Positions 9,448 through 63,724 of a stretch of 64,000 nucleotides of DNA are shown here, in pieces. The stretch comes from Fimbriimonadaceae bacterium (GTDB lineage Bacteria > Armatimonadota > Fimbriimonadia > Fimbriimonadales > Fimbriimonadaceae). Within the stretch, counting starts at the first letter, position 1. The number at the start of each line of letters is the position of its first letter. Where the stretch lies: positions 62,001 to 126,000 of the forward strand of contig JAMLGR010000002.1 of NCBI GenBank assembly GCA_023957775.1, written 5' to 3'. Position numbers and translations under genes: made by a program. The notes beneath the pieces are model-generated. The model was not told the origin of the DNA, did not search any database, and saw nothing but the letters and a program-made list of their open reading frames with translations.

Positions 9448-9517
9448 GAGGTGCGACGTAGCGAGTCCAAGCACTCTACTAGTCTTCAAGGCGGGCACCA
9501 ATCCTCGAGAAGGAAAC

Positions 9518-9556
9518 ATGAACTATGATAACGCCATGGGGCCACGGCCGTGTTGA
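9518..9556 (+). other. short overlapping leader frame or frameshifted true start
   Basis: ATG 9518, behind AAGGAA, opens a 12-codon frame (MNYDNAMGPRPC) that ends at TGA 9554-9556, just inside the next gene. ATG 9536 lies in the same frame and has the leaderless promoter spacing. Either this is a coupled leader peptide, or one base is missing or extra and the long gene really starts here. Confidence 0.4.
9524..9529 (+). promoter_or_regulatory. -10 box (TATGAT) upstream of the STN-like gene
   Basis: TATGAT lies 6 bases before ATG 9536, exactly the leaderless spacing seen elsewhere. That ATG is out of frame with the long gene starting at 9550. Confidence 0.6.
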
Positions 9557-11655
9557 CGCTGCTGGTGTACGGGATTCTGCAACTGGGGAGCACCCAAACG
9601 CTCTCATTGGAGTTCGTTGGCGCTCCACTCTCGCGGATCGTCGCGGCCGTCGCCGACCAAACCAAGCGCGATCTCCGAGTGGATCCCTCCCTTGCAAACA
9701 TGATCGTTGTCGCGAAGGTGAAGCACGTCTCCACAGACGAGTTCGTGCGACACCTTGCCATCGTTGTGGATGCGCAGTGGAAGGAAGACGGGAACCGTCG
9801 AACGCTCGTGCGCTCACCCGAGACCCTGCGCGGTGAGGCGAAAGAGGAGAACACCGTTCGCTCGGCCGCGGTCGAAGGTGCGCTCAAGGAACTCATCAGG
9901 CAGGGCAATTCCTACGGTACGTCCTACGAGCGGGCGGAGCGAATTGTCCAGACGATGGGATCGGAGTCAGCCCCGGGTCAAGCGGTGCCTTCATCCCCCG
10001 CTTTCTGGCTGATGTCGAGTCTCGTTGAAGGGCTAGGCCCCTCGGAGTTTGTTTCGCTCGAACCAGGCGTGCCCAGGGTCTACAGCAATGCACCAACCGC
10101 GGCTCAGCGGGCGTTCCCGCGGGACACGACCGACCTCTTGAAGGCCTATCTGCAAACCGAGGAAGATCTCCGCAATCTCGTATCGAACCTCGACTCTTCG
10201 GCGCCAGTTGACGAACTCGGCAAGCGGATCGGGCGTCCAGACGGAATCAGGAAGTTCGACCTGTTGGTGACGCAAACCAACGACGTCTTCAACCTGCAAC
10301 TTCGCGTCTACGCTCCAGATGGACGTTGGCGAGGGGCCGACTTCCGCACGTTCGCCGCGCGACCGGATGGGTGCCCCCTGCCCAAGGAGGTCAGCGATTG
10401 GGACCTCCCAAAGAATGCCGAACTTCCACCTCTGGGGCGAGAGCTTGTGCCGCACCTTCAAGCTGCCAACGCGGGAGCGCCGAGCACCACGGCTGCCTCC
10501 CAGGCTCTATTGAACGCGCTCGCAGACCCTGTCAAATTCGACCCGATTTCCTTCGTTCTTGGCCCGAGTCTCATCTCGATCGCGGAACACGAAAACCGGA
10601 ACCTCCTCGCGAGCGTCAGCGACGATGTGCTCGATGCGGCCGATCCACCAGGTGCTGCCCAGACGACCGATCTGCGGCTTTTGGCGGTGAAGCTCGCTCA
10701 GGCTGGGTACGAGATCAGCGTCGATGGCGATTGGTTGTTGATCAAACCGCGCCTGGCACTGCGCGCGGACGCCTTTCGCAGTTCGAGGGCAGCCCTTGCG
10801 ACCATGATTCGCACCGCCCGGGCGGAAGGTCGCGTCAGTTTGCGCAACTTCGCAACCTACCGATACGCTTTGGGAACGGCGAGATTCGATCTCGGCAGGC
10901 GAACCCTGGGGCTCCTTCCTTTGATGGGCGCTGAAACCCCCGGTCCCAATCAGTTTCCTCTGAGCACCTCTCTCCTCGGGCTGCTTGGCTCCCTGTCGGA
11001 CTCCAAGTGGAGAGACCTCATCGATGGGCGTCCAATCGAGGTGGCCCAACTCGGCAGCGAACAGCTCGAGTTGTTCCGCGGGTGGACGAATCGGGTACTC
11101 GGGCTCTATCGCCTCGATGTCGCGTTCAACTCAAGGTCCATTCCCGAAATCCTTGAGAATGGATCGGAGTCCATGCCTGACCGCATCCCTCAGAATTGCT
11201 ATCTACGAGCCGCGTCCGTATCCGAGCTTGTTGTCAGTCCCAGGGTGCCCGATGCCAAGCCATGGTCGACCATCATCCTCTCGCCAGAAACCTTCGCGCA
11301 CGGGTTCGCGGAGGCCTTTGCCGCGTCGCACGCGGCGACGCTCGAGGAGACCATCGCTTCCCAACCTGAGCTAGCCGATCAACCCTACGACTACGGCCGA
11401 TCGACTGCGACGCGATTTTGGTGCGAGCCCATCCGCGGTGTCGTCTACGAGGAGACCTACCTGGAACCCCCGGTTACTCGATCAAGCCCAGTCCCCTATT
11501 CCCAACTTCCTGCGAGCTTTCGGGAGGCTGTCAATCGAGCCCTCAAGCGATCTGGACATGGCCGACGGGCCGCAAACACACTCGGCTTAGACGGACGGAT
11601 CGAGAGCTTGCTTTGCTCCCGGCCAAGGACCGGCGTTTCCCAACGGAGCCCCTAG
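9550..11655 (+). CDS. hypothetical exported protein with an STN/secretin-N-like N-terminal module
   Basis: The GTG start gives 701 residues beginning VLTLLVYGILQLGS, which is a plausible but short signal peptide. Residues 17-85 (LEFVGAPLSRIVAAVADQTK, then VAKVKHVSTDEFVRHLAIVV) have the beta-alpha-beta pattern of the secretin/TonB short N-terminal domain (STN), which often follows a signal sequence. The remaining roughly 600 residues are not recognised. Neither a secretin pore domain nor a TonB barrel is visible, so it may be a periplasmic relative. It overlaps the convergent lipoprotein gene by 4 bases. Start uncertain (see the preceding entry). Confidence 0.65.
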   Translation: MLTLLVYGILQLGSTQTLSLEFVGAPLSRIVAAVADQTKRDLRVDPSLANMIVVAKVKHVSTDEFVRHLAIVVDAQWKEDGNRRTLVRSPETLRGEAKEENTVRSAAVEGALKELIRQGNSYGTSYERAERIVQTMGSESAPGQAVPSSPAFWLMSSLVEGLGPSEFVSLEPGVPRVYSNAPTAAQRAFPRDTTDLLKAYLQTEEDLRNLVSNLDSSAPVDELGKRIGRPDGIRKFDLLVTQTNDVFNLQLRVYAPDGRWRGADFRTFAARPDGCPLPKEVSDWDLPKNAELPPLGRELVPHLQAANAGAPSTTAASQALLNALADPVKFDPISFVLGPSLISIAEHENRNLLASVSDDVLDAADPPGAAQTTDLRLLAVKLAQAGYEISVDGDWLLIKPRLALRADAFRSSRAALATMIRTARAEGRVSLRNFATYRYALGTARFDLGRRTLGLLPLMGAETPGPNQFPLSTSLLGLLGSLSDSKWRDLIDGRPIEVAQLGSEQLELFRGWTNRVLGLYRLDVAFNSRSIPEILENGSESMPDRIPQNCYLRAASVSELVVSPRVPDAKPWSTIILSPETFAHGFAEAFAASHAATLEETIASQPELADQPYDYGRSTATRFWCEPIRGVVYEETYLEPPVTRSSPVPYSQLPASFREAVNRALKRSGHGRRAANTLGLDGRIESLLCSRPRTGVSQRSP

Positions 11656-54277: not shown

Positions 54278-54661
54278 CTAGCGAATCCAGGGCCCGTCGC
54301 GAGAACGACGGCACTCGAGGGAGCCTGAGCGAAGCCTTGCAAGAGGAGGTGGAGCTTCGACCGGACCGCCCGTTGCCGCGGTTTCCGGCGCCTCGCCGCC
54401 AGCCGCGGCAGGTTCCACCGCGTCGAAGTGAAGGAGCGTGGCGAGCGCCCGGCCGAACTCGGCCGGCGGAATGCGCAACGCGAGCAGCGAAGCCAAAGCG
54501 CGCTGCGTCTGCTCCCGGTCCCCATCGGGTCCGGCCGAGCCAGCCTCCAGTTGGCGCTGCAGGGTTTCCAACGCCCCCCAGGCGCGCACGCAGTCCACGC
54601 GATCCAATTTGGACGGCGTGTTGACGAGCAGCAGCAACAGGGCTGGAAGAATCGGCAGCAT
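54278..54661 (-). CDS. hypothetical small exported protein upstream of secA
   Basis: The 127-residue protein starts MLPILPALLLLLVNTPSKLD, a signal-like hydrophobic helix, then charged helices (CVRAWGALETLQRQLEAG) and an Ala/Gly/Pro-rich C-terminal half. No family recognised. ATG 54661 is 13 bases after TATAAT with GGGAAG as ribosome site. The longer frame to 54817 is antisense to the next gene and rejected. It could be co-transcribed with secA. Confidence 0.6.
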   Translation of the reverse strand: MLPILPALLLLLVNTPSKLDRVDCVRAWGALETLQRQLEAGSAGPDGDREQTQRALASLLALRIPPAEFGRALATLLHFDAVEPAAAGGEAPETAATGGPVEAPPPLARLRSGSLECRRSRDGPWIR

Positions 54662-54674
54662 GGGCTTCCCAACG

Positions 54675-54680
54675 ATTATA
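54675..54680 (-). promoter_or_regulatory. -10 box (TATAAT) upstream of the small exported protein and secA
   Basis: A perfect minus-strand TATAAT, 13 bases before ATG 54661; leader about 6 bases with GGGAAG. Confidence 0.6.
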
Positions 54681-54751
54681 GACGTTTGGCCGGGGGTCCT
54701 TGCGTCATTGGCGCACCGCGCATGAGGCGATTCCTGGAGTACAACAGGGGG

Positions 54752-56740
54752 GTGCGCTTGACACCAGTCCTCGCGTTGCTCCTTCCGGTCCTGGGATGGT
54801 CTCAGGGCGTCGTCCACCCGGCCCCCTTCCCCAGCCTATCCCGCGACGGCACCGTTCCGGGCCGCCGCCTGGACACCGCGCCGACGATCGACGGGATCGT
54901 CGATCTCGAGCGGGAGTGGGCAGGCGTACCCGGCGGCGAGGGGGCGTTCGACGATCAGACGGGCGAGCCTGCGCCCGAGGGCATGCGCTTCTGGCTGGCC
55001 TACGACGCCAAATACATCTACTTCGCGATCCAGTTGGACGACAGCCAACCCGACTCGATCCGAGCGGTGGAGTACCGGACCAACGCGAGCCTGGGAGGAG
55101 ACGACCACATCGAGTTCCAAATCGATCCGTTCGGCAACTTCTCGGACCGCCATCGATTCCGGATCAACCCGCGCGGCGCCACGGACCTCTCGATCCCAGG
55201 CGGAACGGCGAACAAACGCGAATGGCAAGGCGAGTTCCAAGCCGCAGGCCGCATCACGGAGACGGGATGGGAGGCGGAAGCGCGCATCCCATGGGCCGTC
55301 CTGCGGCTCCCCGGTGCGGGCAAGCGGACGCTGAGGGTCAATGTTTCGCGCGAGCTGCAACGGCTCAATCGAGAGTTCGAGTGGCGCGACACGACTCGCG
55401 GCCAGTACCAAAACGCGGGCTACTGGACCGACGTCGAGATCCCCGATGTCGACCACGGGCGCCGCATCCTCGCCCTGCCCTACGGGTACGCAGGCCTCGA
55501 CGAGCACGGCGGCACGCTGGACGGGGGGATCGATCTCAAGGGGAAGCTGACGGACCAGATCGAGGGCGTGATGACCCTCAACCCAGATTTTCGCAACGTG
55601 GAGAACCAGATCCTCTCGCTCGATTTCAGCTACTTCGAGCGCCTCGCGGGAGAGTCGCGCCCGTTCTTCCTCGAAGGACAGGGTTACTTCGGCGACAACG
55701 AGGGGCCTCGGATCTTCGCCAGCCAGCGGATCCGCCAGATCGACTTCGGCGCGAAAGCGTTCGGCAAGATGGGAGAGACCACCTCTCTGGGCGTGCTGGG
55801 AACGCGAGACGCCCACGGCGGGAACACCGTCGTGGGCAACGTGAGCCAGAAGCTGGGGGACCAGTCCAGCCTCTCCGGTGCGTTCGTGGCCGATCAGCGC
55901 GACGGGACGACAAGCCAGGCCGGGTCGTTCGGGATCTACACGCGCTCCGGGTTGTTCTCGCTCTACGGATCGCACACCATGACGTCCGACCCCGACCGTG
56001 GCAAGGGTTACCGGCACAATGCGGGCTTCTACTACGGGGACGCCCTCTGGGAGGCGGGAGTCAGCTACACCGAGGTGAGCCCCGACCTCTATCCGAGGGT
56101 GGGCTATGCGCCCGAAACCGACTACAAGGGCCCAAGCGTGTTCGTCCAGTACTCGCGCCCGTACGACTCCGGTCCGCTGGAAGAGGTCCAAGTCGGCAGC
56201 TCGTACCGAGATCAGACGACCATCGCCGGCGACCCCTACCGCAGGCAGATCTCGCTCTCGGTCGAACTGACCTTCCGGGCGGGTGTGGCGATCGATCTCG
56301 GCGCGTTCCATCAGACGTTCCGAGGCTACGACGATCACTCGTACTCGGTCGATGTGGGGTGGCCGAGGGGCAATCCGTACAACCACTGGGGCATCGAGCT
56401 CGGGTGGGGCCGGGTCGGCGGCGTCGATTACCAGAGCCTCGGGCCCTCCTTCAGCTACCGTGCCAACGACCGGCTTCAGATCCGGGGGTCCTACGAGTAC
56501 TTCGAGCGGGACGGCGTCGAGACGCAGTCCGTTTTATCCGCCAACTACGATTTCGACGCCTACCGGGCCGTCGCCGCGCGTTTCGTGCAGCGGGACGCAG
56601 ATGTAAGCTTCTACCTTGCGTTCCGCCAGAGCGGCAATGCCGGCAACGAGTACTACCTGATCATCGGAGACCCGAATTCGGACTCCTTCCGCCCGAGCGT
56701 GATCTTCAAGGCCGTGCTGCCGATCGAGTTCCGGTTCTGA
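54752..56740 (+). CDS. CBM9-like / DUF5916-type outer-membrane protein
   Basis: The 662-residue protein starts at GTG 54752 with a signal peptide (VRLTPVLALLLPVLGWSQG). Residues 45-210 are a CBM9-like sugar-binding fold (APTIDGIVDLEREWAGV, RFWLAYDAKYIYFAIQLDDS, EFQIDPFGN, GWEAEARIPWAVLRL). From about 240 to the end is a DUF5916-like beta-barrel region (LTLNPDFRNVENQ-type TLNPDFRNVENQILSLDFSY, FERLAGESRPFFLEGQGYF) ending in a terminal Phe (IEFRF), as in outer-membrane barrels. Probably an outer-membrane protein involved in carbohydrate binding or uptake. ATG 54722 is an alternative start. Confidence 0.85.
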   Translation: MRLTPVLALLLPVLGWSQGVVHPAPFPSLSRDGTVPGRRLDTAPTIDGIVDLEREWAGVPGGEGAFDDQTGEPAPEGMRFWLAYDAKYIYFAIQLDDSQPDSIRAVEYRTNASLGGDDHIEFQIDPFGNFSDRHRFRINPRGATDLSIPGGTANKREWQGEFQAAGRITETGWEAEARIPWAVLRLPGAGKRTLRVNVSRELQRLNREFEWRDTTRGQYQNAGYWTDVEIPDVDHGRRILALPYGYAGLDEHGGTLDGGIDLKGKLTDQIEGVMTLNPDFRNVENQILSLDFSYFERLAGESRPFFLEGQGYFGDNEGPRIFASQRIRQIDFGAKAFGKMGETTSLGVLGTRDAHGGNTVVGNVSQKLGDQSSLSGAFVADQRDGTTSQAGSFGIYTRSGLFSLYGSHTMTSDPDRGKGYRHNAGFYYGDALWEAGVSYTEVSPDLYPRVGYAPETDYKGPSVFVQYSRPYDSGPLEEVQVGSSYRDQTTIAGDPYRRQISLSVELTFRAGVAIDLGAFHQTFRGYDDHSYSVDVGWPRGNPYNHWGIELGWGRVGGVDYQSLGPSFSYRANDRLQIRGSYEYFERDGVETQSVLSANYDFDAYRAVAARFVQRDADVSFYLAFRQSGNAGNEYYLIIGDPNSDSFRPSVIFKAVLPIEFRF

Positions 56741-56744
56741 GGCG

Positions 56745-57086
56745 TCACTCCGAAGGCGCGCTTCCGGGCTGGGCTTCGGTTGGAGCGCTGGGTTCGGGCG
56801 GATGGCCGAGGGTGTCGTAGAGCTTGATGCCTCGGTTGGCGATCACCGAACCCACGATGGCCATCACCAGCAGCAGCACGATACGAAGGAGCACGTTCGC
56901 CAGCGCTTCCCCCGCCTTGGGCAGATCCACCGCCTGTCCGTCCTTCATCCCCAGGGCGACGCTTTGCGGCACCGTGAACATGTGGTAGGCGAGTTGGAAC
57001 GTCCAGAACAGCAGCCCGATGCCCACCAGGAACGTGAGGATCCCGACGACCCTCCCGGCAAACACGGGTCGCTTGGCGTTAGCCAC
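56745..57086 (-). CDS. hypothetical two-helix membrane protein
   Basis: The 113-residue protein starts at GTG 57086, overlapping the end of the MOSC gene by 8 bases. Helix 1 is VVGILTFLVGIGLLFWTFQL and helix 2 VLLRIVLLLVMAIVGSVIAN; the C-terminus is Pro/Ser/Glu-rich. The longer frame starting at 57257 lies inside the MOSC gene and is rejected. Function unknown; translationally coupled to the MOSC protein. Confidence 0.68.
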   Translation of the reverse strand: MANAKRPVFAGRVVGILTFLVGIGLLFWTFQLAYHMFTVPQSVALGMKDGQAVDLPKAGEALANVLLRIVLLLVMAIVGSVIANRGIKLYDTLGHPPEPSAPTEAQPGSAPSE

Positions 57087-57513
57087 TGGCGACGAGCACC
57101 TCGTCCCCGACCCGGATCGTGCCGCCGTCGCGAACGACCGCCAGCATGCCGCGACGATGGTCCAGTTTCTGCTTGAACGCCTCGGGCTCTTCGCCCAATC
57201 GGAGGGCCATCTTCGTGCAGGGGTCGCAATCCATGGTGATCTCGAAGGACGCTTCACCCACGCGGACCAGCGTGCCGAGCGGGAGTTGTTGCAGCCCCGG
57301 CAGTTCGACGGTGATCTGCTCCCTCAAGGTTCCCGGAGCGTAGCCGAACGCCTCCAACTGGTCGATCGCGACGAACAGGACCTGGCGTCTCGCGCGCCCG
57401 CGATGGACGTCGCCTTCAAACCCCTCGCCGGACACGGCGACCAACTCGTCGACGGGCTCGAGTGAGTCCGCGGACGACTTGAGATGCAGGGCCACAACGG
57501 TTCCGCGCGCCAT
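57079..57513 (-). CDS. MOSC domain protein
   Basis: The 144-residue protein is a single MOSC beta-barrel: VSGEGFEGDVHRGRARRQVL (the GxxGDxH motif), a middle VELPGLQQLPLGTLVRVG, and EITMDCDPCTKMA with the Cys expected to bind sulfur or Mo-linked species. MOSC domains act in molybdenum-cofactor sulfuration or thiol-linked metabolism. Stand-alone short forms are common. GTG/ATG choice: ATG 57513 gives MARGTVVALHLK, fitting the fold. Confidence 0.88.
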   Translation of the reverse strand: MARGTVVALHLKSSADSLEPVDELVAVSGEGFEGDVHRGRARRQVLFVAIDQLEAFGYAPGTLREQITVELPGLQQLPLGTLVRVGEASFEITMDCDPCTKMALRLGEEPEAFKQKLDHRRGMLAVVRDGGTIRVGDEVLVASG

Positions 57514-58682: not shown

Positions 58683-58688
58683 TACAAT
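58683..58688 (+). promoter_or_regulatory. -10 box (TACAAT) of the sugar importer operon
   Basis: TACAAT lies 13 bases before ATG 58702, with TTCAAC 19 bases further upstream as a weak -35. Confidence 0.6.
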
Positions 58689-58701: not shown

Positions 58702-61146
58702 ATGCGCACGCGACTGTTCTGCACACTCCTGGCGCTCGCGGTCTGCGCGATCGTCGCCCCTCAAGGCGCGCCCTCGACGCCGGGTTCGGGCAAGTCGGAC
58801 GTCGTGGTTTGGGGATTGGGCCTCGGACCAGACTCCAAGGGCCTCGAAGCGGTCATTCGCGCCTTCGAAGAGCGCAATCCCGACCTGAACGTGCGCATCC
58901 TCTCGATGGGCGCGGGACGCATGAACCCACAAAAGCTCATGACGAGCATCGTGGGCAACGTCGCGCCCGACGTGATCGTCCAAGATCGGTTCACCATCGG
59001 CGACTGGGCGAGCCGGGGCGCGTTTCGAGCCCTCGACGACCTCATCGCCCGCGACCGGGGACGGGATCCCCTCTGCCCCGTCCCCGAGCAGTACTACTCG
59101 GCCGTCTGGCGGGAAGCCTCGTTCGAAAACAAAGTGTACGCCGTCCCGGTCGCCGCGGACGACCGCGTGCTCTACTGGAACAAGAGCATCTTCCGCGAAC
59201 GCGCCAAGGACCTGCGCGCCGCGGGGCTGGACCCCGAGCGCCCCCCTCGGACGTGGTCGGAGCTCCTCGCCTACTCGAAGGTCCTGACCGAGCGCAACCC
59301 GGACGGCTCGTACAAGCGCATCGGCTTCATTCCGAACTTCGGCAACTCGTGGCTCTACCTCTACGCGTTCCAAAACAACGCCGAGTTCCTGTCGCCCGAC
59401 GGGCGCACGTGCACCCTCGACACCCCCGCCAGCGAGGAAGCCCTCCAGTTCATCGTCGATGGGTACGACCTCATCGGGGGCTACGAGGCCGCCAAGGGGT
59501 TCGAAACGGGCTTCGTCGGCAACGAGAACGACCCGTTCATCCTCGGCAAGATCGTGATGAAGATCGACGGGGACTGGATCCTCAACAACCTCTCGCGCTA
59601 CGGCCCGAACCTCGACTTCGGCACCGCGCCCGCACCCGTCCCCGACGATCGGTACTTCAAACGCGGGCGTTTCAAGGACGAGAAGGACACGTTCATCACG
59701 TGGGTGGGCGGCTTCTCCCTCGCCATTCCCGAGGGCGCGCGCAACGTCGAGGGTGCGTGGCGATACATCAAGTTCGCGACGAGCGAAGAGGGGCGCATGA
59801 TCGAGAACCGCGCCCAACGCGATTGGGAGCGGAGGCGCGGCCGCACGTTCATGCCGCGCATCCAGGGGAACATCGAGGCGAACGACCAGATGTGGAAGGA
59901 GTTCAAGCCGGTCCTTCCCGCCTTTGCCCAGGCGCTCCGGACGCACATCGACATGATGCCGTACAGCCGCATCCGCCCGGTCACGTTCGTCGGGCAGGTC
60001 CTTTGGGACGAGCACGTGCGCGCCATGGAGCTGGCGGCGTTGCACAAGATGACCCCCAAGCAGGCGCTGCGGGCCAGCCAGGCCGTCGTTCAACGAGAGC
60101 TGGACGCGGTCTACGACCGCGACAAGTACCCCGTCGTGGACCAGCGCATCCCCATCGCCATGGGCATCGCGGCCTGCCTGATCGCCGCCGCGTGGATGGC
60201 CGTGGCGTTCCGGCGCCAGCGGCTGGGCAAGCTCGCGCGCAGCGAGGCTCGCTGGGCCTACCTGCTGATCGCCCCGTGGTTCGTCGGCTTTCTCATCTTC
60301 CTTCTGGGACCGATGATCGCGTCCCTCTACTTCTCCTTCACCCAATACAACGTGCTGAGCGAGCCGCACTGGGTGGGCCTGCGGAACTACATCGACATCG
60401 GCACCACGGATAAGGGAAACACCCTCAAGGCGCTCGGAAACGCGCTGTACCTCGCCGGGTTCGGGGTCCCGCTCGGCATCGTCACCGGCCTTGCCGTGGC
60501 GTTGCTGCTGAACGCCGCCGTGCGCGGCATGCGCTTCTACCGCACGTTCTTCTACATGCCCGCGATCGTGCCGACGGTCGCCAGCGCCGTGCTCTGGATC
60601 TGGCTCCTCTACAGCGACCCCAATCGCGGGCTGATCAACGCGGGGTGGCAGGCGACGATCACGCACTGGTTCGGCACTCCGCCGCCCGGCTGGCTCAGCT
60701 CCGAGGCGTGGGCCAAGCCCTCGCTGATCCTTATGGGGGTGTGGGGTGCGGGAAGCGGGATGATCCTGTGGCTGGCGGGCTTGAAGGGCGTGCCGGGCAC
60801 CCTCTACGAGGCCGCCGAAATCGACGGCGCCTCCCCGTGGAGACAGTTCTGGGCCGTCACCTTGCCCCAGCTCAGCCCGATCGTGTTCTTCAACGTCGTG
60901 ATGGGGCTGATTGCGGCCATTCAGGAGTTCGACCGGGTGTACGTCATGAAAGCGCCCGACGGCCCCGTGGGCCCCGGCGACTCCCTGCTCGTGCCGGTGT
61001 ACCACCTGTTCACGAACGGGTTCAGCTATTTCAAGATGGGTTACGCGAGCGCTCTTGCGTGGGCGATCTTCGCGTTGATCCTGCTGCTCACGCTCCTCCA
61101 GTTCAAGCTCGCCCCCCGTTGGGTGCACTACGAGGTGGACCGCTAG
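58702..61146 (+). CDS. fused sugar-binding protein and ABC permease (MalE-MalF-like fusion)
   Basis: The 814-residue protein has a signal peptide (MRTRLFCTLLALAVCAIVAP). Next comes a CUT1-type solute-binding domain (residues 30-470; SDVVVWGLGLGPDSKGLEAV, ENKVYAVPVAADDRVLYWNK, KIDGDWILNNLSRYGPNLD). A linker helix (about 480-500, IPIAMGIAACLIAAAWMAVAF) leads to a MalF/UgpA-type permease (510-814) with six helices and the ABC-contact EAA loop (YEAAEIDGASPWRQFWAVTL). Binding protein and permease are normally separate genes. ATG 58702 was chosen for the signal peptide. It is followed without gap by the second permease. Confidence 0.92.
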   Translation: MRTRLFCTLLALAVCAIVAPQGAPSTPGSGKSDVVVWGLGLGPDSKGLEAVIRAFEERNPDLNVRILSMGAGRMNPQKLMTSIVGNVAPDVIVQDRFTIGDWASRGAFRALDDLIARDRGRDPLCPVPEQYYSAVWREASFENKVYAVPVAADDRVLYWNKSIFRERAKDLRAAGLDPERPPRTWSELLAYSKVLTERNPDGSYKRIGFIPNFGNSWLYLYAFQNNAEFLSPDGRTCTLDTPASEEALQFIVDGYDLIGGYEAAKGFETGFVGNENDPFILGKIVMKIDGDWILNNLSRYGPNLDFGTAPAPVPDDRYFKRGRFKDEKDTFITWVGGFSLAIPEGARNVEGAWRYIKFATSEEGRMIENRAQRDWERRRGRTFMPRIQGNIEANDQMWKEFKPVLPAFAQALRTHIDMMPYSRIRPVTFVGQVLWDEHVRAMELAALHKMTPKQALRASQAVVQRELDAVYDRDKYPVVDQRIPIAMGIAACLIAAAWMAVAFRRQRLGKLARSEARWAYLLIAPWFVGFLIFLLGPMIASLYFSFTQYNVLSEPHWVGLRNYIDIGTTDKGNTLKALGNALYLAGFGVPLGIVTGLAVALLLNAAVRGMRFYRTFFYMPAIVPTVASAVLWIWLLYSDPNRGLINAGWQATITHWFGTPPPGWLSSEAWAKPSLILMGVWGAGSGMILWLAGLKGVPGTLYEAAEIDGASPWRQFWAVTLPQLSPIVFFNVVMGLIAAIQEFDRVYVMKAPDGPVGPGDSLLVPVYHLFTNGFSYFKMGYASALAWAIFALILLLTLLQFKLAPRWVHYEVDR

Positions 61147-62874
61147 ATGGGTCCGGTTCTCTATCTGGCGGGCACGCTGGGGGTCTGGATCGGGCTCGCG
61201 CTGGGTCTGAGGGCGGCCGCTTTGGCCGTGCGCGCGTGGCAGGCGCCCCCGGGATTGCCCCGCGCGCAAGCCTCCCGCGGAGCAGCGATCGCGCTCGGAC
61301 TCGGCGCGTTGCTGACGGTCGTCGGCAGCGAGCTCACGCGCCCCGCGGAGCGGGCGGGGCTTTCGGTCCCGCTCGTGTGGCTGTTCATGCCCTTCTCCGC
61401 ATGGGTGGCGCTCGCCGCCTTCGTTGCCGCAGCCTTTCGCCTGGGCCAGGCGATGCTGGAGCACCGGGTCGAGACTCGACGGCAGCGGTTTCTCGCCGGG
61501 AGCATCTGGGCCGTGGCGGCCTGCGCGTCCTTCCTCTGGTTCCGATCGGGTTCGGACCCGATCGACGTGCTTCGCGGTGCGATCGCGGTTTCACCCGCGA
61601 CGTTGGGGCTCGTGGCGCTGTTGGCGGTGGCCGCGGTGGGCGCGATGGCCTGGTCCGGGCGTTCGGCCAAGCGCCGAGGGTGGGGAAAGACCGCGGTGGC
61701 GCACGTCGCGCTGATCGCGGGTTCGATCGTGTTCGGGTTGCCGTTCTTGTGGCTCACCATCACGAGCTTCAAAGAGGATCGCGACATGGCCTCGCCGACC
61801 GGGATCGTGTGGGTCCCCCGCGTCCAGCTCACGGTGCCCTACTACGACCGGGAGGACCCGCTGCTCGAGGGCGACTACGAGGGAACGACGGTCCAGGGCT
61901 CGGTGCTGGAAACCCTGCCCGACGGGCGCGTGAAGCTCGACATCCTGCGGCCCATGGCCCTTCGCGGGCTCACGTTCGAAACCCCAAGGGAGGCGCTCAA
62001 GGAGGTTCCGAAGCAGATCCCCCTGGTGACCGGCACCTACCAGGGCACCGCGGTAACCGGCAAGGTGGTGCAGGAGTTGGACGACGGAAGCCGCCGCGTT
62101 GCGGTGATGAAGCCGCCCGCGCTCGCAGGCGCGGTCTACACGGCCTTGCCGAACGAGGTCGAGCCGCTCCGCAAGATCGGGCTTCGGTGGCAGAACTACA
62201 CGGAGGCTCTGGACTTCCTGCCGGTCGAGACGCTCAAGGGGCTCGTGTACCTCAAGAACACGTTGATTCTGGTGGTGCTCAACGTGCTGGGCACGCTTCT
62301 AAGCTGCTCGCTGGTGGCGTACGCGTTCTCGCGCATGCGGTTCCCCGGTCGCGACGCGTTGTTTGCGCTCCTGCTCAGCACGATGATGCTCCCCGCGGCG
62401 GTGACGTTGCTGCCCCAGTTCCTGATCTTCCGCTGGCTGGGTTGGATCGACACGCTGTACCCGTTGTGGGTGCCGGCGTTCTTCGCCTCGGCGTTCAACG
62501 TGTTCCTGCTGCGCCAGTTCTTCATGAACGTGCCGATGGAGTTGGAAGACGCGGCGAAGATCGACGGCTGCGGCTACCTGCGATCGTACTGGGCGGTGAT
62601 GTTGCCGCAGGTCAAACCCGCGCTGGCGGTCATCGCGATCTGGACCTTCATGGCGGCTTGGAACAACTTCATGGGTCCGCTGATCTACGTGAACTCGCCC
62701 GAGAACATGCCGGTCGCCTACGCCGTGCAGCTCTTCCAGGGCGATCGCGGAGGGGAGCCGGGGCTGCTGATGGCGTTCACCACGCTCTCGATGCTGCCGG
62801 TGCTGCTGTTGTTCTTCTTCGCGCAGCGGTATTTCATCGAGGGCGTGACCTTATCGGGATTCGGGGGCCGGTAG
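61147..62874 (+). CDS. second sugar ABC permease (MalG-like) with enlarged extracytoplasmic loop
   Basis: The 575-residue protein starts directly after the preceding stop (TAG-ATG). Residues 1-175 carry several additional helices that are not typical of MalG. The permease core starts near GSIVFGLPFLWLTITSFKED. The first outer loop is enlarged (240-345) and holds a duplicated module: GDYEGTTVQGSVLETLPDGR (from 242) and GTYQGTAVTGKVVQELDDGS (from 296). Core helices and the EAA loop (LEDAAKIDGCGYLRSYWAVM) complete it. It probably forms the heteromeric channel with the fused partner; the ATPase must be encoded elsewhere. Confidence 0.9.
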   Translation: MGPVLYLAGTLGVWIGLALGLRAAALAVRAWQAPPGLPRAQASRGAAIALGLGALLTVVGSELTRPAERAGLSVPLVWLFMPFSAWVALAAFVAAAFRLGQAMLEHRVETRRQRFLAGSIWAVAACASFLWFRSGSDPIDVLRGAIAVSPATLGLVALLAVAAVGAMAWSGRSAKRRGWGKTAVAHVALIAGSIVFGLPFLWLTITSFKEDRDMASPTGIVWVPRVQLTVPYYDREDPLLEGDYEGTTVQGSVLETLPDGRVKLDILRPMALRGLTFETPREALKEVPKQIPLVTGTYQGTAVTGKVVQELDDGSRRVAVMKPPALAGAVYTALPNEVEPLRKIGLRWQNYTEALDFLPVETLKGLVYLKNTLILVVLNVLGTLLSCSLVAYAFSRMRFPGRDALFALLLSTMMLPAAVTLLPQFLIFRWLGWIDTLYPLWVPAFFASAFNVFLLRQFFMNVPMELEDAAKIDGCGYLRSYWAVMLPQVKPALAVIAIWTFMAAWNNFMGPLIYVNSPENMPVAYAVQLFQGDRGGEPGLLMAFTTLSMLPVLLLFFFAQRYFIEGVTLSGFGGR

Positions 62875-62965: not shown

Positions 62966-63724
62966 ATGCGTTTTTCGAAGCTTTTGCTTTCTGCATTTGT
63001 CGTTGCCGGCGTCGCCGGCGCCCAGGCATACGACCTGACCGGTCGCATTCGCGACTTCTATCAGGCGCATCCGGACATGGAAGCTGCGATCAGCGGCGTC
63101 AAGACCGGAATGGTCGACACCACGCTGAACGGTGCGGGCAACCCCGTCTTCGTGGGTGCACCCGGATACGGCAGCGTAACCAGCGCGGCCACGTTCGACC
63201 AGTGGTACAACGACGTCGGCGGCGTCAACTCCCCGGCGAACCTCACGATTTCGCTGAGCGACATCGGAGGCGGCTTGTGGGAGTACAACAACCAGAGCTT
63301 CTTCCCGATCGACGGGCAGTTGTTCGGCAACGAGGGGAACGGCCACAACTTCCACTTCACCTACGAGGTCGAAGCAACGTTCACTTACTTTGCGGGAACA
63401 GGCCAGCACTTCGATTTCGAGGGTGACGACGACCTGTGGGTTTTCATGAACGGCAAACTCGCGGTTGACCTCGGCGGCATCCACAGCACCGCGTCCGGAA
63501 GCGTCAACCTGGACAGTTCGGCAGCGGCGCTGGGCATTACGGACGGGAACGCTTACACGATGAAGATGTTCTTCGCCGAGCGCCACACCACGCAGTCCAC
63601 GTTCAAGATTCAAACGAACCTGGACCTGACGAGCACCCCGCCCGTTCCGGAGCCCGCCACGATGGTGCTGGGCGCCGCCGCGCTTGCGACGGCCGCGCGA
63701 CGTCGCAAGGCCCGCCGCAGCTAA
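62966..63724 (+). CDS. fibro-slime domain PEP-CTERM secreted protein
   Basis: The 252-residue protein has a signal peptide (MRFSKLLLSAFVVAGVAGAQA) and starts its mature part with YDLTGRIRDFYQAHPDMEAA, typical of the fibro-slime domain. The domain core is HFDFEGDDDLWVFMNGKLAV followed by DLGGIHST. The C-terminus has the PEP-CTERM sorting signal: PVPEPATMVLGAAALATAA then RRRKARRS. PEP-CTERM proteins are processed by exosortase and often join extracellular matrix. The strong ribosome site suggests high expression. Confidence 0.94.
   Translation: MRFSKLLLSAFVVAGVAGAQAYDLTGRIRDFYQAHPDMEAAISGVKTGMVDTTLNGAGNPVFVGAPGYGSVTSAATFDQWYNDVGGVNSPANLTISLSDIGGGLWEYNNQSFFPIDGQLFGNEGNGHNFHFTYEVEATFTYFAGTGQHFDFEGDDDLWVFMNGKLAVDLGGIHSTASGSVNLDSSAAALGITDGNAYTMKMFFAERHTTQSTFKIQTNLDLTSTPPVPEPATMVLGAAALATAARRRKARRS

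Follow-up and report, generated by a model that had tools for sequence, protein, structure and literature searches.

Among type I ABC importers the maltose system is the textbook case, and it works with a large excess of free receptor, on which its behaviour depends; in its permease the P2 loop sits on the MalF-type subunit, where it follows the third helix and contacts the receptor MalE. Attached receptors occur in the OpuA and GlnPQ families, in which, as regards copy number and domain order, two or four substrate-binding domains (SBDs) belong to one homodimeric permease, and in the polyamine importer PotCD, in which the permease comes first and the substrate-binding protein (SBP) follows. 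The SBPs of sugar importers have been reviewed as either free or lipid-anchored (PMC11212667), in agreement with the first-pass annotation of this DNA, whereas OpuA of Lactococcus lactis, specific for glycine betaine, and GlnPQ, specific for amino acids, are type I importers with covalently linked SBDs (PMC11065425, PMC8025302), a contrast that the same annotation had drawn correctly. In OpuA an unconserved linker, of 11 residues, and an unconserved anchor make the connection (PMC11065425), and in the mycoplasma PotCD (e.g. MCAP_0200) the permease and the substrate-binding component are fused (PMC3177781). Covalently linked SBPs are, then, already known, but the CUT1 version that we report here is apparently undescribed: no CUT1 SBP-permease fusion was found in the open-access literature on CUT1 fusions or on Armatimonadota transporters, and the accessible text of the Fimbriimonas ginsengisoli genome paper, which counts 28 SBPs and 68 permeases, does not remark on fusions.

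The window, i.e. the whole stretch of 64,000 nucleotides analysed here, belongs to a genome of 3.5 Mb in 27 contigs and carries on its forward strand, at 58702–61146, a gene that joins an SBP to a UgpA/MalF-type permease. The translation of 58702–61143 gives 814 residues with no stop; an alternative in-frame ATG lies at 58687, 15 bases 5' of the annotated start, so that the true product could reach 819 residues. The promoter search gave no match above chance. The chain begins with a signal peptide region of the Sec type (aa 1–25, 58702–58776), recognised from a hydropathy segment at aa 5–23 and from a survey of ortholog N-termini, and continues with the sugar-binding domain (aa 32–471, 58795–60114), a linker (aa 472–481) with the tether helix TM0 (aa 482–504; together 60115–60213), and the permease domain of UgpA type (aa 508–810, 60223–61131). 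In Pfam, SBP_bac_1 (aa 45–365, E 6e-30) and BPD_transp_1 (aa 592–807, E 1e-13) were both found in this one chain. Among the NCBIfam models, those for MalE/UgpB touch the N-terminal part, and UgpA is the top permease model (aa 518–810, E 1e-29), ahead of MalF; UgpA and, for the partner subunit described below, UgpE are the best models by E-value, both being far under their equivalog cut-offs. When the chain was searched against PDB sequences, its first half matched sugar SBPs and its second half AlgM1, SugA and MalF; none of the solved chains matched both. Hydropathy analysis located, after the N-terminal segment, an extra segment at aa 478–496 and then six in the permease, and AlphaFold2, run with 46 sequences, predicted a helix at aa 482–504 between the SBP and the permease helices. 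In this single-chain model the SBP is mostly above pLDDT 90, while the permease is moderate, 44–70 in places. The modelled SBP matches oligosaccharide SBPs with Z ~36, binders of maltotriose, mannan and sophorose being included. The coupling (EAA) motif of the fused permease, YEAAEIDGASPWRQFWAVTLPQL (aa 702–724; as a mapped feature, aa 701–722, 60802–60867), keeps E703, A704, D708, G709, A710 and P722 invariant in the 46 sequences compared. The signal peptide, SBP, linker helix and EAA-bearing permease that had been read from the sequence at first sight are thus borne out by Pfam, hydropathy and the AlphaFold2 model, except that the permease, with six transmembrane helices plus the tether helix, is UgpA-like and not specifically MalF-like.

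The ATG of the next gene (61147–62874, forward strand) follows immediately after the TAG of the fused gene. It encodes a partner permease of 575 residues, assigned to the MalG/UgpE type by Pfam, NCBIfam and structure comparison. Its position is conserved: it was present downstream in 71 of the 80 loci fetched (70 within 0.5 kb, mostly abutting or overlapping); most of the nine remaining loci stop at or near a contig end. The locus therefore has the MalE/UgpB-type SBP (SBP_bac_1) and the pair of MalF/UgpA and MalG/UgpE permeases with EAA loops that mark CUT1 importers, and departs from their usual, though not strictly defining, state, in which the SBP is separate and free or lipid-anchored, in that a single open frame encodes both SBP and permease.

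An ATPase gene is absent from the importer locus of the window, and the partner carries unusual extra domains; both would suit a protein that acts as a receptor or sensor instead of a transporter. We regard this as very improbable, in view of the EAA motifs, intact and nearly invariant in both permeases (in the partner at aa 464–489, 62536–62613, from the alignment), and of the partner core (aa 178–570), which superimposes on MalG with Z 20 and 3.3 Å over 262 residues. Moreover, the genome does hold a MalK-type ATPase: out of 51 ABC_tran matches a single one has an OB_MalK match, on another contig (G000:C3:148387), and in a related locus (L067) a MalK-like ATPase gene lies directly 3' of the permease pair. 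Since about six CUT1 permease pairs are encoded in the genome against this single OB_MalK ATPase, the latter is probably common to them.

A sequencing or assembly error joining two genes had been named at the outset as what would undo the fusion. One wrong base could do so where CUT1 genes for an SBP and a permease sit in register, one stop apart, as they do in Nonomuraea (L171), a spacing from which a genuine fusion could also easily form. This explanation has practically no probability left, and is refuted, because the orthologs share the open frame: at 50–72% identity it recurs in dozens of independently assembled genomes, complete single-contig ones included, and the length of the linker is conserved as well. 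The first-pass annotation had proposed to look for the same domain order elsewhere. Of 291 Armatimonadota genomes, 168 encode an orthologous fusion with this order; by genus the figure is 91 of 156, and among the good genomes it is 130 of 194, nearly always with a single copy per genome. In the family of the window 77 of 85 genomes have it; the eight that lack it comprise six genomes that are incomplete or show a fragment at the edge of a contig, and two from a genus with 1.5 Mb genomes. Most same-family members among the 60 nearest genomes encode a full-length ortholog, at 54–72% identity. When 84,980 species genomes were scanned, 258 relatives were retrieved, and the best 80 of these are nearly all close to full length and carry the labels of Armatimonadota groups or of unclassified bins, the exceptions in label being one Methanoregulaceae contig and one Abditibacterium. 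The fused gene is conserved in most Armatimonadota, accompanied by further fused CUT1 paralogs, and is not peculiar to this genome.

Two of these sequences deserve a separate comment. The contig labelled Methanoregulaceae archaeon SJ84 (L070) bears an importer of Fimbriimonadaceae type and is apparently identical to G011:C11, both being of 35,000 bases, so that its public label looks wrong. In L173 (G217:C1:2179500-2184500) the ortholog has an in-frame TAG within the SBP domain and is either a pseudogene or an assembly error. Fission of the chain into two genes was also considered and rejected, the stop in G217 being the sole one among the phylum-wide orthologs listed and lying in the SBP, not at the junction.

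The 46 sequences differ in how strongly each part of the chain is kept. Mean identity to the sequence of the window is 59% for the SBP and 63% for the permease, 32% for the linker and 21% for TM0. The distance from Q464, in the last conserved SBP helix, to E515, the first conserved residue of the permease, nevertheless stays at 51–54 residues in all 46, a 19-residue segment of strong hydrophobicity (KD >=1.4) is present in 45, and positive charge is heavier on the C-terminal than on the N-terminal side of the tether helix in 41. Retention of length and hydrophobicity with free sequence fits a spacer with a membrane anchor. The N-termini of the orthologs, in the survey, vary between a cleavable signal, a lipobox and an uncleaved membrane anchor, all of which are, as far as sequence tells, consistent with an extracytoplasmic SBP. 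The poor conservation of the linker could also be read as the mark of a precursor, in which a protease cuts the linker and frees a periplasmic SBP, leaving a CUT1 importer of the usual sort whose parts are made 1:1, and cleavage cannot be read from sequence. We judge this unlikely: a disposable linker would not need a linker and helix of fixed length throughout the phylum, the cut chain would leave the permease with a surplus transmembrane helix, and the lipoboxes or N-terminal anchors of some orthologs argue that free release is not a common goal.

Our preferred reading, to which we assign a probability of roughly 0.84, is that the locus encodes a type I ABC importer of the CUT1 kind (MalFGK2/UgpABCE) with the receptor covalently built into one permease subunit, one per heterodimer. 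We infer the topology from hydropathy, charge and the single-chain AlphaFold model. The signal peptide would export the chain and the sugar-binding domain would fold outside the cytoplasmic membrane; the helix at aa 482–504 would then return the chain to the cytoplasm, leaving the N-terminus of the permease inside. The fused permease would pair with the MalG-like protein encoded next to it, and in the transporting complex both EAA loops would engage the MalK-type ATPase encoded elsewhere, presumably common to the CUT1 systems of the genome. Each heterodimer would have exactly one receptor above the mouth of the channel on a tether of fixed length; a pool of free receptor would be unnecessary, and empty free receptors could not compete. 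That each channel has its own tethered receptor, with an extra helix, was already the suggestion of the first-pass annotation; it holds at the level of sequence and model, through the domain order and the AlphaFold2 helix, and is much strengthened by the conservation across the phylum and the fixed length of the tether. Each such channel in the Armatimonadota probably owns one permanently attached receptor, rather than sharing loose ones.

By joining SBD and permease within a single chain that has a predicted membrane anchor, the protein shows what characterises importers with covalently linked SBDs. As in OpuA and GlnPQ, the SBP is carried on the permease by a short linker, of about 10 residues here, and a hydrophobic anchor of unconserved sequence. 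Unlike in those families, the fused chain combines SBP_bac_1 with UgpA and the single SBP is N-terminal to the permease; furthermore, a homodimeric permease with at least two SBDs is not what was found, since the conserved next gene encodes a distinct MalG-type partner free of SBP, and the permease would be a heterodimer. PotCD, in which the SBP is likewise joined to one subunit of a heterodimeric permease and PotB is separate, is perhaps the closest mechanistic precedent by analogy; it differs in that here the SBP comes first, the family is CUT1 and not that of polyamine importers, and the envelope is another. MalEFGK2, UgpABCE, LpqY-SugABC and the alginate importer AlgM1M2 share the families of SBP, permease and EAA motif with the fused system, as Pfam, NCBIfam and PDB matches show, but keep SBP and permease as separate chains. 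F. ginsengisoli carries genes for LPS as well as diderm gene families (PMC4072686); with a diderm envelope, the tether is not simply needed against loss of the receptor, unlike in Gram-positive bacteria.

A natural CUT1 importer whose channels each carry one tethered receptor would allow a direct test of what the free receptor adds, and its contributions to affinity, to competition by empty receptors, to speed and to cargo range could be addressed. The receptor and the permease being a single chain suits structural and single-molecule studies. Little is known of the biology of the Armatimonadota, and a gene conserved in most of them also informs how these bacteria feed.

The partner permease has features of its own, a loop repeat and an N-terminal extension, which the first-pass annotation, right about the fused gene, had overlooked. 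The extension (aa 1–177, 61147–61677) contains extra helices and two beta strands, and is long in Fimbriimonadales-type sequences only. The loop between TM1 and TM2 holds two beta repeats, at aa 236–285 (61852–62001) and aa 290–339 (62014–62163), delimited by alignment, model and profile comparison and related to each other (their profile comparison scores 53.8, and none of 60 column shuffles exceeds 16.6). In the other aligned Armatimonadota the shorter partners carry a single copy that resembles both repeats, and in L120 the repeat is missing; the tandem region as a whole spans 61819–62184, with 0, 1 or 2 copies phylum-wide. No Pfam family matched the repeat above cut-off (there were weak KOW/SH3-like matches) and no PDB sequence did; in fold comparisons of the partner with the PDB the permease core dominated, which makes them uninformative on the fold of the repeat. 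The structural alignment of the partner with MalF begins at MalF residue 60, that is, at the third helix of MalF, so that the repeat loop would correspond to MalF P2, carried here, unlike in MalF, on the MalG-type subunit in the equivalent position. By analogy with what P2 does for MalE, the beta repeats in this first large periplasmic loop may contact, hold or position the tethered receptor. It is tempting, and to us possible although somewhat doubtful, to go further and see here a separate class of sugar importers by architecture, in which a heterodimeric CUT1 permease and a single receptor are locked together 1:1 and the opposite subunit provides a cradle for the receptor (the P2-equivalent loop, with 0, 1 or 2 beta repeats), with retention across a whole diderm phylum and several independent fusions there.

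As for the origin of the fusions, further fused SBP-permease CUT1 chains, in open frames of 780–930 aa, were observed in several groups within the order of the genome of the window (L127 to L134, L136 to L146 and L166), with ordinary short MalG partners where these were seen. In the permease tree all the F1 domains, i.e. those of the ortholog group of the window, form one clade (100/100) apart from the other fused CUT1 groups, namely the L127–L138 type with L139/L146, the L140–L142 type, the L143/L144 type and L133. The tree requires five changes, and the AU test of a single fused clade gave p 0.069; a single origin of all the fused CUT1 groups is, from these sequences, not firmly rejected. 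The comparison with other phyla covered plasmid-borne CUT1 loci, and the plasmid matches that resembled fusions (S. meliloti, Priestia, Deinococcus, Thermus, Nonomuraea, Subdoligranulum) were separate genes where annotated or checked.

The cargo is probably an oligosaccharide, with a hint of alpha-glucans. The nearest SBP by sequence is a mannan binder. About ten loci have GH13/CBM48 and GH31 genes upstream of the pair, some of them with LacI as well, and a GH13 ortholog is present elsewhere in the genome of the window. Such a neighbourhood of sugar genes (LacI/GH13/GH31) was found neither in the window nor in most relatives, so that it points only weakly to a cargo. Other neighbours were observed. 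On the opposite strand, at 56745–57257, there is a gene for a small membrane protein, relatives of which lie close to the fused gene in 26 loci, frequently together with a divergent MFS transporter. The large ORF at 54428–56740, with weak CBM9-like and DUF5916 matches, possibly encodes an outer-membrane protein. Directly after the importer genes, at 62966–63724, the window encodes a Fibro-slime domain protein with a PEP-CTERM signal, and in six loci (L107, at 9467–10291, L097, L098, L099, L101 and L118) a gene for a membrane protein of ~270 aa lies directly 3' of the pair.
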